DNA of 64,000 bases from positions 1-64,000 of the forward strand of contig JALFUR010000014.1 of assembly GCA_022784465.1 (NCBI GenBank), written 5' to 3'. Numbering within the stretch: the stretch's first letter is position 1; every line of letters begins with the position of its first letter. The notes under the pieces were generated by a model, which was not told the origin of the DNA, searched no databases, and saw only the letters and a list, made by a program, of their open reading frames with translations. Position numbers and translations under genes: made by a program. Below are positions 7,182-59,349 of the stretch, piece after piece. Origin of the DNA: Christensenella sp. Its GTDB lineage: Bacteria; Bacillota; Clostridia; Christensenellales; UBA3700.

Positions 7182-7217
7182 AAAAAAATCTGGACACATA
7201 TATTATGTATGCCCAGA
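7182..7217 (-). terminator. Intrinsic terminator of the pflB riboswitch expression platform
   Basis: On the minus strand the stem TCTGGGCATACAT / ATGTGTCCAGA (with one bulge) is followed at once by seven Ts. Its 5' arm includes the CUGGGC that is the conserved 3' element of the riboswitch. Ligand binding should therefore prevent the terminator from forming, making an ON switch. Confidence 0.85.
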
Positions 7218-7281
7218 CGGTCGACTATCCATACTTGTGCTCCTTGTGGTAAACTCCACCTATCCGTCAGTAACACAAGCG
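7207..7281 (-). promoter_or_regulatory. ZTP riboswitch (pfl motif) upstream of pflB
   Basis: The minus-strand RNA shows the features of the pfl motif: an outer stem CUUGUG/CACAAG, UUACUGACGG in the junction, a hairpin AGGUGGAGUUUACCACA, AAGGAGC, then a variable linker and the conserved CCGUCUGGGCAU end. ZTP/ZMP riboswitches sense 10-formyl-THF shortage and turn on one-carbon and purine genes. The terminator at 7182-7217 overlaps the 3' conserved element. Known family associations include fhs, purH, glyA and pyruvate formate-lyase. Confidence 0.88.
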
Positions 7282-7399
7282 CTATTTGCTTCAATTAAAT
7301 ATTAGCATAAACTATTTAATTCTCCTAACATTTTTTATCAAATAAATATTTTTTTCATGTTGACATCTATCATTTCATGTTTCATAATAATTTTAATCA

Positions 7400-7521
7400 A
7401 TATTTCTTGAGGCGAGGTGTAATTCCTCACCGGTGGTATAGTCCACAAACGTTGTAAATTTTTTATGCAACGCCGAATTAGTGAAATTCTAATACCGACA
7501 GTATAGTCTGGATGAGAAAGG
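7400..7521 (+). promoter_or_regulatory. FMN riboswitch (RFN element) upstream of ribU
   Basis: The hallmark segments occur in order: GAGGCGAGGTGTAATTCCTC, ACCGGTGGTATAGTCCAC, a variable CGTTG...CAACG hairpin, CCGAATTAGTGAAATTCTAA, TACCGACAGTATAGTCTGGATGAGA. There is no T-rich terminator between the element and the gene. The P1 3' side (AGAAAGGA) is also the ribosome binding site, so control is probably by sequestering it when FMN is bound. Confidence 0.95.
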
Positions 7522-7531
7522 AATGAATATT

Positions 7532-52498: not shown

Positions 52499-53890
52499 TT
52501 AAAACTCTGCAGTTCCTGTTGTTCTTGGGAATGGAATTACGTCTCTTATGTTTTGCATTCCTGTCAAATACATAATTAATCTTTCAAATCCCAAACCAAA
52601 TCCTGCATGCTTTACACCACCATATTTACGAAGGTCTAAATACCACCAGTAATCTTCTTCTTTTAGTCCTAGTTCTTTCATTCTATCTAAAAGTAGATCT
52701 AATCTTTCTTCTCTTTGGCTTCCTCCGCAAATTTCGCCTACCGCTGGAACCAATAAATCTGCAGCAGCAACAGTCTTTCCATCATCATTTAATCTCATAT
52801 AAAAGGCCTTGATTTCCTTTGGATAATCTGTAACAAAAGTAGGCTTTTTAAATACTTGTTCTGTCAAATATCTTTCGTGCTCTGTTTGTAAATCAGCACC
52901 CCAATATACAGGGAATTGGAATTCATCTTTATGTTTTTCAAGAATCTCTACTGCTTCAGTATAAGAAATTCTAGCAAAATCTGATGAAACAATATGTTTT
53001 AATCTATCGATTAATCCTTTATCTACGAAATTGTTAAAGAATGCAAGTTCTTCTGGACATTTTTCAAGAACATCATTAATTACATACTTAATCATGTCTT
53101 CTTGTAAATCCATATCGTCATGCAAATCAGCAAAAGCTATCTCTGGCTCAACCATCCAAAACTCTGCAGCATGTCTATTTGTATAACTTCTTTCTGCTCT
53201 AAATGTTGGACCAAATGTATATACATTTCTAAAAGCTAAAGCGTAGCATTCTGCACTTAATTGTCCAGATACTGTCAAGTTTACACTCTTGCCAAAGAAA
53301 TCCTTTGTAAAATCAATTTTGCCCTCTTCTGTTTTTGGTAAATCATTTAAATCTAATGTTGTTACTCTAAACATATCTCCAGCGCCTTCACAATCTGAGC
53401 CTGTAATTAATGGAGTATTTACATATACAAAATCTCTAGAAGCAAAGAATGCATGCAAAGCTTGAGCTGCAACACTTCTAACTCTAAATACAGCTTGGAA
53501 AGTATTCGCTCTTGGTCTTAAATGAGCAATTTCCCTTAAATATTCTAGAGAATGTCTTTTCTTTTGCAATGGATAATCTGGTGTTGATGTTCCTTCAACA
53601 AAAACTGCTGTTCCTCTTATTTCAAAAGGTTGCTTCATTTCTGGTGTTACAACAACTTCACCTTGAACTTTAAGTCCTGCACCAACGTTTTGAGAAATTA
53701 TTGTCTTATAATTTTCATATGTTGCATCTAATACAACTTGTGTTGTTTTAAAGTAAGTACCATCACTAATTTCAATAAAAGCAAAATTCTTGCTATCACG
53801 AATAGTTCTAACCCATCCATATACCTCAACTTGCTTTCCTGAATAATTGTTATAGTTCCTATTTAGTTCTTTTAAAGATATCTTTTCCAT
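52499..53890 (-). CDS. asnS: Asparaginyl-tRNA synthetase
   Basis: This class IIb enzyme charges tRNA-Asn. The N-terminal OB fold ([26 protein letters not shown]) binds the anticodon; motif 2 is [21 protein letters not shown], motif 3 [15 protein letters not shown]. The AsnS-specific end is [15 protein letters not shown]. From the ATG at 53890 (GAGGAAA upstream) the length is 463. The tRNA-Thr gene lies 8 nt downstream on the same strand. Confidence 0.96.
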
Positions 53891-53921
53891 ATATGTTTTC
53901 CTCATAAAATAATGCGTAATC

Positions 53922-53951
53922 ATTATAAATCTTTAATATAAAATATGTAAA
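53922..53951 (-). promoter_or_regulatory. asnS promoter
   Basis: Minus-strand TTTACA (53946-53951), an 18-bp spacer and TATAAT (53922-53927) lie about 30 nt before the start codon. No T-box leader precedes asnS. From here to 54068 I see nothing further. Confidence 0.65.
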
Positions 53952-54068
53952 GAAAAATATGACCCATCAAGGCTTTCATCTTGTTATGCTACAATGACTC
54001 AATACAATTTGTTTTTACTACTGGAATTTGCATTTACAAAAAACAAATGTAAAATTTTTAAACAGATA

Positions 54069-54098
54069 TTGAAAAAGCCTATTGAATATTTATATAAT
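54069..54098 (+). promoter_or_regulatory. Promoter of the structured RNA gene
   Basis: TTGAAA (54069-54074), an 18-bp spacer and TATAAT (54093-54098) place the start near 54105, 2 nt before the first base pair of the long closing stem. Confidence 0.7.
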
Positions 54099-54104
54099 AT
54101 AAGT

Positions 54105-54268
54105 GACCTTATGGGTGCACATGTACCGCCAATTATATTATCGGGACATAGAAGTAAAATAGCAGCTGGCGTGCCCTATTCTCAAATTGCCTAGGGATTA
54201 CAAAAACTATTTTCAGTGGACCCACCCTGCACAAACCGCGGGTTTATCGTCACTCATAAGGATTTTTT
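54105..54268 (+). ncRNA. Structured small RNA, about 164 nt, family unknown
   Basis: This stretch has a promoter in front, no convincing coding frame and an intrinsic terminator at its end. An 11-bp closing stem joins 54107-54117 (CCTTATGGGTG) to 54251-54261 (CACTCATAAGG, one G-U) and is followed at once by a six-T run. Inside are CGCCA/TGGCG (54127-54131/54167-54171), AAAATAG/CTATTTT (54156-54162/54207-54213), CCCTA/TAGGG (54174-54178/54192-54196) and AAACC/GGTTT (54233-54237/54241-54245). The first two cross each other, giving a pseudoknot. It does not show tmRNA, SRP, RNase P or T-box signatures. 6S RNA or raiA-type RNA are candidates that I cannot confirm by eye. Neighbours are on the opposite strand. 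Confidence 0.78.
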
Positions 54269-55220
54269 AAAGAGAAAAATTATCGTCCTCAATTACTGCA
54301 TCTCTATATTTAAGTTTTGGATCTACTACAGTTTGTTCATCAATGTAGTATTTTTTTCCTTTTAAATTATAGAATTCTACATTGTCCATTATTTGCATTA
54401 CAAGCCATGAAATTGCATAATTAATAATAATTCCTACTCCTGCTGTGAATATCGAAACAAGGAACGATGTCATTACAAAACATAGATAAACAACATAATA
54501 TTCTGCAAAGAACTTCAAAAAATTTCCTTTTAAATGATTAAAATTATTTTTTAATGCCTCAATAGGAGTGCATCCTTCAATTACTAAATATGGAATCCAA
54601 TATACAAACAATGCCCTTCTTAATGCTAATACTCCATATGCTAGCAAGAAGAATACAAATAAGCCTAAATATGCAGATACTTTTCCAAATAGCAAAGCTA
54701 TAATAAATGTTAACGAGAACATTATAAAATAATATGCAATTACAATCGCTGCATATATTAAAGCAAATCTAAAACTCTTTTTCATATTATAGATATAGTT
54801 TGATGTAAATCCAAACTTACTATTTGATGACATAAATGAATACAAAATGTCACCTACCGTATAATATGCCATATAGTAAAACACTGCGAAAATAAATATT
54901 ATTAACAATAAGAATACAACAGAAAAAATAATATTAATATCCCATTTATCTGAAATTGCTGGAACCTTTTTTATTGAGTCAACAAGTGCATCATATGATT
55001 CACTTGTATCTTCGCCTTTAAGTAACGATTTTATATAATCTGATGCATTATCAACAAGATTCAATTCTTCTATATCATTTCTCAATCCATTTAATACTGG
55101 CAAGAAAAACGCGCTGCTTATAATTGCCAAAACAAATGAAAGAATTAATAAAAATATTATCATCTTAAATACAAGGTTAAATTTTGTAAACAAAATACTT
55201 GCAACATTCTTTACTTTCAT
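54267..55220 (-). CDS. Polytopic membrane protein, unknown function
   Basis: The 317-residue protein has about six membrane helices (first at about 18-42) and a short acidic C-terminal tail with VDPKLKYRDAVIEDD. The segment WIPYLVIEGCTPIEALKNNFNHLKGNFLKFFAEYYVV is the kind of loop found in DUF975-like or glycerophosphodiesterase-membrane-domain proteins, but I cannot assign it. It starts 1 bp after a similar 288-residue membrane protein and is last in the valS operon. Confidence 0.75.
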   Translation of the reverse strand: MKVKNVASILFTKFNLVFKMIIFLLILSFVLAIISSAFFLPVLNGLRNDIEELNLVDNASDYIKSLLKGEDTSESYDALVDSIKKVPAISDKWDINIIFSVVFLLLIIFIFAVFYYMAYYTVGDILYSFMSSNSKFGFTSNYIYNMKKSFRFALIYAAIVIAYYFIMFSLTFIIALLFGKVSAYLGLFVFFLLAYGVLALRRALFVYWIPYLVIEGCTPIEALKNNFNHLKGNFLKFFAEYYVVYLCFVMTSFLVSIFTAGVGIIINYAISWLVMQIMDNVEFYNLKGKKYYIDEQTVVDPKLKYRDAVIEDDNFSL

Positions 55221-55221
55221 G

Positions 55222-56088
55222 TTAAATCCTCCATTTATTTTCTTGATTTAAATCTTCTCTTTCTATGTCATTTAAATCAAAGAATATTACATACATTATT
55301 GTTATGTAATATACAAAACTAAAGAAGAAGAATATGAAATTGAAAACGTATCTAATTATAGTTAATGCAATATGATTAAACTCAATATCTAAACTAGCAA
55401 ATATAATTACAGGTATATAACTAATTATAAGTGGTATTATCAAATTAAGGAAAATCTTTCCAATATTATTAGATACCATTCTCATACTTTCTGGTATCGA
55501 TCTAAATAGACCTTGTCTTCTCATTGTCATATTTGGCAAAACACAAGAAAACCAAGCTAAAATGTACATAGCTAAAACAAGCGATAAACCACCAACTAAT
55601 AAAATAAGTACAATTACTGCTGACGGCTGAGTGGTTACCCTTAAAATCAATGACATAAACACGCTCATTGCAAATGCATATATTTCTAAAGCAATATATA
55701 CTGCAATAACACTCTTTATTGTCGCAAACATGTTTTCGTTAGTTCTTTTTAAAATTCCTCTAAAACCAGGATAAACGGTTTTACCATATTTCATTCTGTT
55801 TTGAATCTTTCCAATATATGAACTAAAAATAAAAATTGTGGAAATTGTAAGTAAGATAATAAAAACTACATACTCCCACCTATTCCATTGAGATGAATCA
55901 TTTATTGAAGTAAAAATATCCCAAAAGTTTGCATTATTAAAATCCCCTAAATGAGCAATAATATAATCAAATGCGCTTGTAGGCAAAATAAAAATTGAAT
56001 ATATTATTGCCGGAATTAATGCATGAGAACAAACGCCTTTCCAATTCTTTTTTATAAACTTAAATGCACCTTTTGCATATTTAAACAT
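55222..56088 (-). CDS. Polytopic membrane protein, unknown function
   Basis: The 288-residue protein has about six membrane helices; the N-terminus FKYAKGAFKFIKKNWKGV is basic and amphipathic, and SIPESMRMVSNNIGKIFLNL resembles the loop before the fifth helix of the neighbouring membrane protein (EALKNNFNHLKGNFLKFF). The two may be diverged partners forming a complex. It lies 2 bp after the HAD phosphatase gene. Function unknown. Confidence 0.75.
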   Translation of the reverse strand: MFKYAKGAFKFIKKNWKGVCSHALIPAIIYSIFILPTSAFDYIIAHLGDFNNANFWDIFTSINDSSQWNRWEYVVFIILLTISTIFIFSSYIGKIQNRMKYGKTVYPGFRGILKRTNENMFATIKSVIAVYIALEIYAFAMSVFMSLILRVTTQPSAVIVLILLVGGLSLVLAMYILAWFSCVLPNMTMRRQGLFRSIPESMRMVSNNIGKIFLNLIIPLIISYIPVIIFASLDIEFNHIALTIIRYVFNFIFFFFSFVYYITIMYVIFFDLNDIEREDLNQENKWRI

Positions 56089-56090
56089 AA

Positions 56091-56732
56091 TTATTCCTCA
56101 ATGTATTTTTCTACTTCATATGGATCTTTAGCTCTAAACACGACATTTTTATTTTTTATCTTATCGTAATCGCCAAAGCCCCATAAACATAATATGCAAT
56201 CCATGTTTAACTCTTCTGCTCCTTCAACATCGAATCGAGTATCTCCAATCATTACACACTCATCTATCGAACAATTAAGTTGTTGAATTGCATATTCAAG
56301 CACTTCTCTTTTAGTTTCTCTTTTATTATAACATAGGCCAGATACAAAATCTATGTACTTGTCTACACCAAATCTTTGCAACAAATGAACAGCTTCTTCA
56401 TGCTTTTTACAAGAAGCAACACACACCTTATAACCCTTATTATGCAAACTCTCAAAAGTCTCTTTTATGCCGTCATACAAGGTTGTCTTGTAAATTGCTC
56501 CGGTCGAAACATATTGATCCCTATAATACTCAACTGCCTCATATGCTTTTTCAGTTCCCATATATGAAGCAAAAGTTTCACTAATTGGAGGTCCAATATA
56601 TTTTCTATACATTGATGGATCAACATCTAATCCATAATGATCAAATGTGGCTTTTAATACCTCAGCAACACCTTCATATGTGTTGGATATTGTGCCATCA
56701 AAATCGTAAAACAAATATTTATATTTTCCCAT
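56091..56732 (-). CDS. HAD-family hydrolase, phosphoglycolate phosphatase-like
   Basis: The 213-residue enzyme has motif I YDFDGTISNTYEG (nucleophile Asp), motif II in VCVASCKKHEEAV, Lys in KRETKREVLEYA and motif III MIGDTRFDVEGAEEL. The cap between motifs I and II is the helical C1 type of phosphoglycolate phosphatases and related enzymes; substrate cannot be assigned. It starts 1 bp after valS. Confidence 0.9.
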   Translation of the reverse strand: MGKYKYLFYDFDGTISNTYEGVAEVLKATFDHYGLDVDPSMYRKYIGPPISETFASYMGTEKAYEAVEYYRDQYVSTGAIYKTTLYDGIKETFESLHNKGYKVCVASCKKHEEAVHLLQRFGVDKYIDFVSGLCYNKRETKREVLEYAIQQLNCSIDECVMIGDTRFDVEGAEELNMDCILCLWGFGDYDKIKNKNVVFRAKDPYEVEKYIEE

Positions 56733-56733
56733 A

Positions 56734-59349
56734 TTACATTGATTCTATTTGTGCTACTAATTTTTCTTTTTTATCTAAATAATCTCTCAATTTATTCTCT
56801 TCTTTTTCAATTAAAGGCTTAGGTGCTTTTGCTACAAAGCCAGGGTTAGATAACATTCCTTGACTTCTCTTAATTTCACTTTCAACCACCTTCAATTCTG
56901 CTTGCAATCTAGCTTTTTCTGCTTGTAAATCAACAAGTTCTCCAAGAGGAACAATAACTTCTCCATATGAACCAAACATAGATACCATATTCTTATCTAA
57001 TGCAGATTTATCTTGAATAAATGTTACCTCATTAACACCAGCAAGCTTTTGAATAAATGCTACATTCTTTGCTTTTAGAGTTGAGTTCATCAAATAAATA
57101 GCAACTTTTTTAGAAGGAGCAACATTTCTTTCTGCCTTCATGTTTCTAATTGTTTTGATTAAGTCCATAACCTTCTCAAACTCTTTTCTTTCTTTAGCAA
57201 AAGCATATTTTTTATTTGCTTCTGGCCAAGCAGAGATAACGATGCTTCCTTTAGTTGTTGGCAAATATTTGTAGATCTCTTCAGTTATAAATGGTGTGAA
57301 TGGATGCATAAGTTTTAAAATGTTTTCCAAAACATATAACAATACAGCAACCGTATTTGCTTTTGCTTCTTTATCTTCACCGTATAATGTAGTTTTACTT
57401 AATTCAATATACCAATCGCAGAAATCACTCCATACGAAATCATATAATTTTGCACTTGCAAGACCTATTTCATATTTGTTTATATTCTTAGTAACTTCTT
57501 TTATTGTTGTATTTAACTTAGATAAAATCCATTTGTCTGAATCATTTAATCTAAATTCACCCATCTTAGATGGTTTAATTCCCTCTGCATTCATTAATAC
57601 GAATCTTGAAGCATTCCAAATCTTATTCATAAAGTTAGATGCACTTTCTGTTTTCTCATCAATATATCTTGTGTCTCCACCAGGAGCAATACCTTGAGTT
57701 AGAGAATATCTCAATGAGTCAGCACCATATTTATCTATGATTTCAAGAGGATCGATTCCATTTCCTGCAGATTTACTCATCTTCTTTCCGTATTTATCTC
57801 TTACGATTCCGTGAATAAGAACTTCTGGGAATGGAACTTCTCCCATATGCTCTATTCCTGAGAAAATCATTCTTGCTACCCAGAAGAAAATAATATCGTA
57901 TGCAGTAACTAACAATGAGTTTGGATAGAAATATTTCAAATCTTCTGTCTTATCTGGATATCCAAGTGTTGAGAATGGCCACAAAGCAGACGAAAACCAT
58001 GTATCTAAAACATCCTCATCTTGCTTAATATTTGTGCTTCCGCACTTACTGCATTTGCATGGAGCAGTTTCTTCAACCATCATCTCACCACAATCTTGGC
58101 AGTAATATGCCGGAATTCTATGACCCCACCATAATTGTCTAGAAATACACCAATCTTTAATGTTTTCCATCCAATTGTAATAAACCTTTGTGAAACGAGC
58201 AGGTATAAACTCTGTCTTTTTCTCTCTAACAGCTTTAATAGCTGGTTTAGCAAGAGGTTCCATTTTAACAAACCATTGCTTAGAAACAATTGGCTCAACT
58301 GTAGAATGACATCTATAGCATTGACCAACATTGTGATTATAATCTTCAATGCTAACCATATATCCTTGATCTGATAAATCTTTACAAACTACATCTCTAG
58401 CAGCTTCTCTACTCAAGCCATTGTATTTTCCAGTTTTTTCATTTAATGAACCATCATCGTTCATAACTCTTATAACTTCCAAATTATGTCTCAATCCAAC
58501 TTCAAAGTCGTTAGGATCATGCGCTGGAGTAATTTTTACGCATCCAGAACCAAAGTCCATTTCAACATATTCGTCAGAAATTATAGGAATTTCTCTATCT
58601 GTTAAAGGCAATTTAAGCATTTTGCCTATCATGTCTTTATATCTATCATCTTTAGGGTTAACAGCAACAGCTGTATCTCCAAATAGAGTTTCAGGTCTTG
58701 TTGTTGCAACAATTATCTCTCCACTTCCATCTACAAGAGGATATCTAATATTCCATAAATGTGATGGTTGTTCTTCATATTCTACCTCAGCATCAGATAA
58801 TGCTGTTTTACAACATGGACACCAGTTTATTATTCTAGCTCCTTTATAAATCAAGCCTTTATTGTATAATTTAACAAAAACATTTTTTACAGCCTTTGAA
58901 CATCTTTCATCCATTGTGAAAGCTTCTCTTGTCCAATCGCAAGAAGAACCTAATCTTTTTAGTTGTTCTACAATTCTTCCACCATATTGTTTTTTCCAAG
59001 CCCATGCTCTTTCCAAAAAGCCGTCTCTACCAATATCTTCTTTCTTAATACCTTCTTCCTTCATCTTTTCTACAATTTTAACTTCTGTAGCAATAGATGC
59101 ATGGTCAGTTCCTGGTAACCATAAAGTAGAAAAACCTTGCATTCTCTTAAATCTAACAATAACATCTTGTATTGTGTTGTTTAATGCATGGCCCATATGT
59201 AATTGTCCTGTTATATTTGGTGGCGGAATTACAATAGTAAAAGGCTCCTTTTTCTTATCTACTTTAGCTGTGAATACTCCACTTTGAACCCATTCATTAT
59301 ATAATTGGTTCTCAAATTTTTGTGGATTATAACTTTTTTCCATTTCCAT
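56734..59349 (-). CDS. valS: Valyl-tRNA synthetase
   Basis: The class I enzyme has the HIGH-type motif GQLHMGHALNNTIQD, KMSKSAGNGIDP, and editing-domain TTRPETLFGDTAVAVNP. A zinc-ribbon insertion (CQDCGEMM...CKCSKCG) and the C-terminal coiled coil (DLQAEKARLQAELKVVESEIKR) are present. Total length is 871, normal. GGAG precedes the first ATG. No T-box leader is visible; it is cotranscribed with upstream pgsA-like and small membrane genes. Confidence 0.97.
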   Translation of the reverse strand: MEMEKSYNPQKFENQLYNEWVQSGVFTAKVDKKKEPFTIVIPPPNITGQLHMGHALNNTIQDVIVRFKRMQGFSTLWLPGTDHASIATEVKIVEKMKEEGIKKEDIGRDGFLERAWAWKKQYGGRIVEQLKRLGSSCDWTREAFTMDERCSKAVKNVFVKLYNKGLIYKGARIINWCPCCKTALSDAEVEYEEQPSHLWNIRYPLVDGSGEIIVATTRPETLFGDTAVAVNPKDDRYKDMIGKMLKLPLTDREIPIISDEYVEMDFGSGCVKITPAHDPNDFEVGLRHNLEVIRVMNDDGSLNEKTGKYNGLSREAARDVVCKDLSDQGYMVSIEDYNHNVGQCYRCHSTVEPIVSKQWFVKMEPLAKPAIKAVREKKTEFIPARFTKVYYNWMENIKDWCISRQLWWGHRIPAYYCQDCGEMMVEETAPCKCSKCGSTNIKQDEDVLDTWFSSALWPFSTLGYPDKTEDLKYFYPNSLLVTAYDIIFFWVARMIFSGIEHMGEVPFPEVLIHGIVRDKYGKKMSKSAGNGIDPLEIIDKYGADSLRYSLTQGIAPGGDTRYIDEKTESASNFMNKIWNASRFVLMNAEGIKPSKMGEFRLNDSDKWILSKLNTTIKEVTKNINKYEIGLASAKLYDFVWSDFCDWYIELSKTTLYGEDKEAKANTVAVLLYVLENILKLMHPFTPFITEEIYKYLPTTKGSIVISAWPEANKKYAFAKERKEFEKVMDLIKTIRNMKAERNVAPSKKVAIYLMNSTLKAKNVAFIQKLAGVNEVTFIQDKSALDKNMVSMFGSYGEVIVPLGELVDLQAEKARLQAELKVVESEIKRSQGMLSNPGFVAKAPKPLIEKEENKLRDYLDKKEKLVAQIESM

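Follow-up and report, generated by a model that had tools for sequence, protein, structure and literature searches.

By imitating an open promoter, 6S RNA sequesters RNA polymerase. The strands around its central bubble have mutually exclusive partners, being able to pair in P2, in a 3′ hairpin or in the central bubble collapse helix, and the free 6S-1 RNA of Bacillus subtilis (bsrA) already has the hairpin on the 3′ side of its bubble (PMC8876501). The pRNAs of known 6S RNAs start next to an adenine and carry GG at positions 4/5 or 5/6 (PMC8414754). Ms1 of Actinobacteria is ~300 nt long, has extra terminal hairpins and binds core RNA polymerase (PMC9130861).

The window analysed here, 64,000 nucleotides of a Christensenella sp. 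contig (JALFUR010000014.1), contains a gene whose product is very probably the 6S (SsrS) RNA of this Christensenellales bacterium, in a divergent form that scores under the Rfam cut-off (Table 1). With the 6S/SsrS RNAs of RF00013 it shares architecture, single copy, an own promoter and size range, as well as the GGGA...ACCCACC(C)UGC...GCGGGUU blocks around the central bubble. It differs from them in its closing stem, which is shorter and of replaced sequence, in its length of ~164 nt versus 187 model positions, and in its score. Compared with the described features of B. subtilis 6S-1 RNA, the small hairpin on the 3′ side of the bubble and a predicted G-initiated pRNA are common to both, whereas the neighbours asnS and a membrane-protein gene are those of the clade studied here. 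A literature search on 6S RNA together with Christensenella, in a limited collection, found no paper.

Table 1. Features of the putative 6S RNA locus and its flanking genes (window coordinates)
Feature	Position	Strand	Remarks
asnS	52499-53923	-	neighbour of the RNA gene
Promoter, sigma-70/A type, TTGAAA-18-TATAAT	54069-54098	+	11/12 consensus matches
Predicted 6S RNA gene (ssrS), ~164 nt	54105-54268	+	ends inferred from sequence; identity from covariance-model searches
P1 closing stem, 5′ strand CCUUAUGGGUG	54107-54117	+	closing stem here in 19/19 family sequences tested
Predicted pRNA 5′-GGCGGUACAUGUGC	54117-54130	-	start opposite C54130; from sequence hallmarks
P2, 5′ strand UGUACC	54122-54127	+	partner GGUUUA 54241-54246, one U-U mismatch; aligned to RF00013 positions 37-42 with 145-150
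Central bubble, 5′ side, A/U-rich, GCCAAUUAUAUUAUC	54128-54142	+	alignment to RF00013
Apical arm P3, 5′ strand GGGACAU	54143-54149	+	partner GUGGACCC 54216-54223, A-A mismatch and one bulged G; 91% of cells paired
Apical arm P4, 5′ strand AAAAUAG	54156-54162	+	partner 54207-54213; double changes in 6/7 pairs
Apical P5, 5′ strand CCCUA	54174-54178	+	partner 54192-54196; double changes in 3/5 pairs
Hairpin on 3′ side of central bubble, ACCC(U)GC/GCGGGU	54224-54243	+	invariant in family
P1 closing stem, 3′ strand CACUCAUAAGG	54251-54261	+	pairs perfectly over 11 bp with 5′ strand
T-run TTTTTT, probable 3′ end	54263-54268	+	directly after closing stem and one A
Membrane-type protein, unnamed	54267-55220	-	neighbour of the RNA gene; convergent
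Second membrane-type protein	55222-56088	-	adjacent to the 54267-55220 gene

The gene and its neighbourhood

The initial annotation had described a gene for a structured RNA that has a promoter of its own, a closing stem ending in a T-run and no credible reading frame and stands between two minus-strand genes. All of these features were recovered in our analysis. The promoter and the 11-bp closing stem lie as listed in Table 1, and the TATAATAT box upstream of the RNA is also present in three relatives (L005-L007). From the sequence, the 5′ end of the RNA was placed 7 nt downstream of the -10 box. Only one mechanical 66-aa open reading frame overlaps the RNA, and indels separate the relatives. 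The stop codon of the convergent membrane-protein gene overlaps the T-run. In five relatives (L002, L003 and L005-L007), a terminator-like hairpin stands separately, further downstream of the RNA. At 54251-54268 in the window the T-run abuts the closing stem directly, so that this terminator was apparently lost or merged.

The RNA is single-copy in its own genome as judged by BLAST, which also found relatives in three of the four other members of the genus and matched, more weakly, a second genus of the family. In a pattern scan of named genomes, these relatives fell in Christensenella sp./Christensenellaceae, one of them bearing the label UBA3700. The gene order valS, HAD hydrolase, two membrane proteins, RNA and asnS is conserved in four genera (52499-59349 in the window; loci L123-L126, L128 and L129), and the asnS neighbourhood of the RNA is retained in a fifth genus. 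Within the family, four genera keep both membrane-protein genes beside the 6S gene. Neither of their products gave a Pfam match at E≤0.001; in the one encoded next to the RNA, the C-terminal motif YY.D.Q.V.DP...Y.DAV is common across genera.

Reciprocal covariance-model searches

A standard scan of the genome gave no RF00013 match, and an Rfam search of the stretch containing the RNA returned no family at or above threshold; weak matches to SNORA26, mir-357 and SmY in the stretch were rejected as chance. In the cmscan check proposed in the initial annotation, run on the bare 171-base stretch, 6S was the sole family of 4227 at E≤10, but with 12.5 bits it remained below the RF00013 gathering score of 46.4 bits, a threshold curated for searching rather than a biological property of the RNA itself. 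The alignment spans model positions 37-150. The 12.5-bit score alone proves nothing; together with the reciprocal searches described below it shows the correspondence of parts.

For the first of these searches, a covariance model (R1) was built from the RNA of the window and six relatives (seven sequences). R1 found one full-length locus in 37 of the 46 genomes of the family (Christensenellales, UBA3700 group, as judged by public matches) and further matches in many families of the order. Nine distant R1 loci in other families were matched by RF00013 above its cut-off, at the same coordinates and end to end (L061, 71.1 bits; L052, 68.5; L062, 66.7; L058, 64.4; L054, 64.2; L063, 61.4; L057, 59.2; L056, 56.8; L060, 56.3). 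Three more R1 loci, including one of the window's own family (L039), were matched by RF00013 below the cut-off. Within the family, RF00013 gave sub-threshold matches in 28 of 46 genomes. R1 and RF00013 coincided in all 25 family genomes matched by both, among them two with direct BLAST relatives of the RNA (G008 and G013); the other three of the 28 belong to one genus (g6) that R1 missed. Across the order, 194 of 297 genomes have a 6S gene by RF00013, and full-length R1 matches fall on these loci, among the matches with listed RF00013 coordinates. Weak partial R1 matches of 38-60 nt in the order (G142, G157 and a second match of G314) look like chance, those in G142 and G157 because they are located away from the RF00013 locus.

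The reverse search used a 6S model (R2) made from 34 loci. To avoid circularity, only loci found by RF00013 were included, and the window's genus and a further genus (g5) were left out. Across all 1.59 Mb of the genome, the best R2 match was the RNA, with 36.0 bits (E 8.6e-6), the runner-up reaching 15.4 bits; the relatives of genus g5 scored 58-59 bits. The model also matched ssrS of E. coli K-12 end to end (locus positions 284-468 versus 284-466 annotated, E 0.021).

Since R1 loci are RF00013 matches above cut-off at the same places and R2 finds the RNA of the window, we conclude homology to 6S. The initial annotation had taken the RNA as apparently undescribed, and as a new ncRNA class if it were neither 6S nor raiA RNA. 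The lack of an Rfam family at threshold, the conserved sequence blocks and the covarying helices would agree with a new, clade-specific class of structured RNA without an assigned function, but relatives of the RNA are RF00013 members over the cut-off and a model made from 6S loci recovers it, so that we consider a new class most improbable. 6S had also been named there as a candidate, and this suggestion is borne out by the reciprocal models. The second candidate, raiA RNA (RF03072), has a similar size and occurs in the same order, where 36 of 101 sampled genomes exceed the raiA cut-off. However, the raiA model matched neither the window's genome nor the genomes of its family (f1) listed in this sample. 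The raiA sequences of the order have no evident similarity to the RNA and share none of its motifs, and genomes such as G026 and G037 carry raiA and 6S at separate places. No relative showed an RF03072 match at this locus. The probability that the RNA is raiA is therefore vanishingly small.

Secondary structure and covariation

The folding energy of the single sequence was at chance level (z = -0.93), 33 of 200 shuffles folding equally well. Because this energy is unremarkable, the helices drawn in the initial annotation needed comparative evidence, and compensatory changes in homologues had been named there as a check. In 19 relatives, changes on both sides were observed in 15 pairs, compared to 9.6 ± 1.5 in shuffles, of which 0/500 reached 15. 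The covariation score was 0.219 versus 0.05-0.12 with the helices slid. Of the four further helices that had been proposed, two of them crossing, the existence of further helices is supported in the apical arm, where they covary across relatives, while the pseudoknot is not: every helix of the RNA of at least 5 bp with at least two G-C pairs (20 helices) was scored on 19 sequences, and no helix crossing the nested set was supported by compensatory change. Compensatory changes were few or absent in crossing helices such as GUGCA 54115-54119/UGCAC 54228-54232, whose formation competes with that of P1 or the 3′ hairpin. They probably represent central-bubble pairings of 6S that exclude one another, and such alternative partners are a likely source of the apparent crossing in the hand-drawn fold, whose helices had not been named.

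The RNA has the rod shape of 6S, with a closing stem, a large central bubble and an interrupted apical arm with a terminal loop, as seen in its alignment to RF00013 positions 37-150, in the closing stem of the family sequences and in the covarying arm helices. The sequence of P1 varies between genera, and in the window it is without the GUGUUCG.../ACGGCAC blocks of the Rfam consensus. The 3′ central-bubble hairpin can form in 19/19 family sequences, its invariant sequence placing it outside the covariation evidence. A motif resembling this hairpin, ACCCACCUGC..GCGGGUU, occurs in 6S RNAs of the order, and the blocks GCUGGCGYGCC, GGAUUACAAAAA and ACCCACC(C)UGC are conserved among the relatives.

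Proposed function and annotation of 6S RNA in the family

The predicted pRNA start agrees with the signature of known 6S RNAs. C54130 followed by A54131 gives 5′-GGCGG..., placing GG at pRNA positions 4/5. As an open-promoter mimic, the RNA would bind the housekeeping sigma-A RNA polymerase holoenzyme and hold it back when nutrients are low. Once NTPs return, the polymerase would copy a short pRNA from the 5′ side of the bubble, with the predicted start at C54130. This pRNA would open P2 and refold the bubble, and the enzyme would be released. We infer this mechanism from established 6S biology; observed are a conserved single-copy gene, its promoter, and 6S homology and shape.

The RNA might instead be a 6S descendant of shifted function which, like Ms1, acts on core RNA polymerase and not on the sigma-A holoenzyme. 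Ms1 provides a precedent (PMC9130861) and has the same 6S-like shape, and the drift from the Rfam consensus is strong, mainly in the closing stem. On the other hand, length, central bubble, 3′ hairpin and pRNA-start features remain canonical, whereas Ms1 is far longer and carries its additional hairpins. We regard an Ms1-like function of this RNA as highly unlikely. For the UBA3700 group, a change of polymerase partner or release mechanism in the 6S-derived RNA, of which the rebuilt closing stem would be a sign, has a slim chance of being correct.

For the RNA read as 6S, the biology itself is as expected, and the practical gain concerns automatic annotation, which misses it. The strong drift of 6S in this family of gut bacteria is the reason why a standard Rfam search overlooks the RNA of the window. 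By the Rfam cut-off alone, 6S RNA seems absent from the whole family (0/46 genomes). R1 and RF00013 together recover it in 40 of 46 genomes (37 by R1 and the three of genus g6 by RF00013). Including UBA3700-group sequences in the RF00013 seed would close this annotation gap.

Elsewhere in the window, a ZMP/ZTP riboswitch (7204-7284, minus strand) and an FMN riboswitch (7399-7527, plus strand), both above their Rfam cut-offs, stand back to back on opposite strands, ~115 bases apart.
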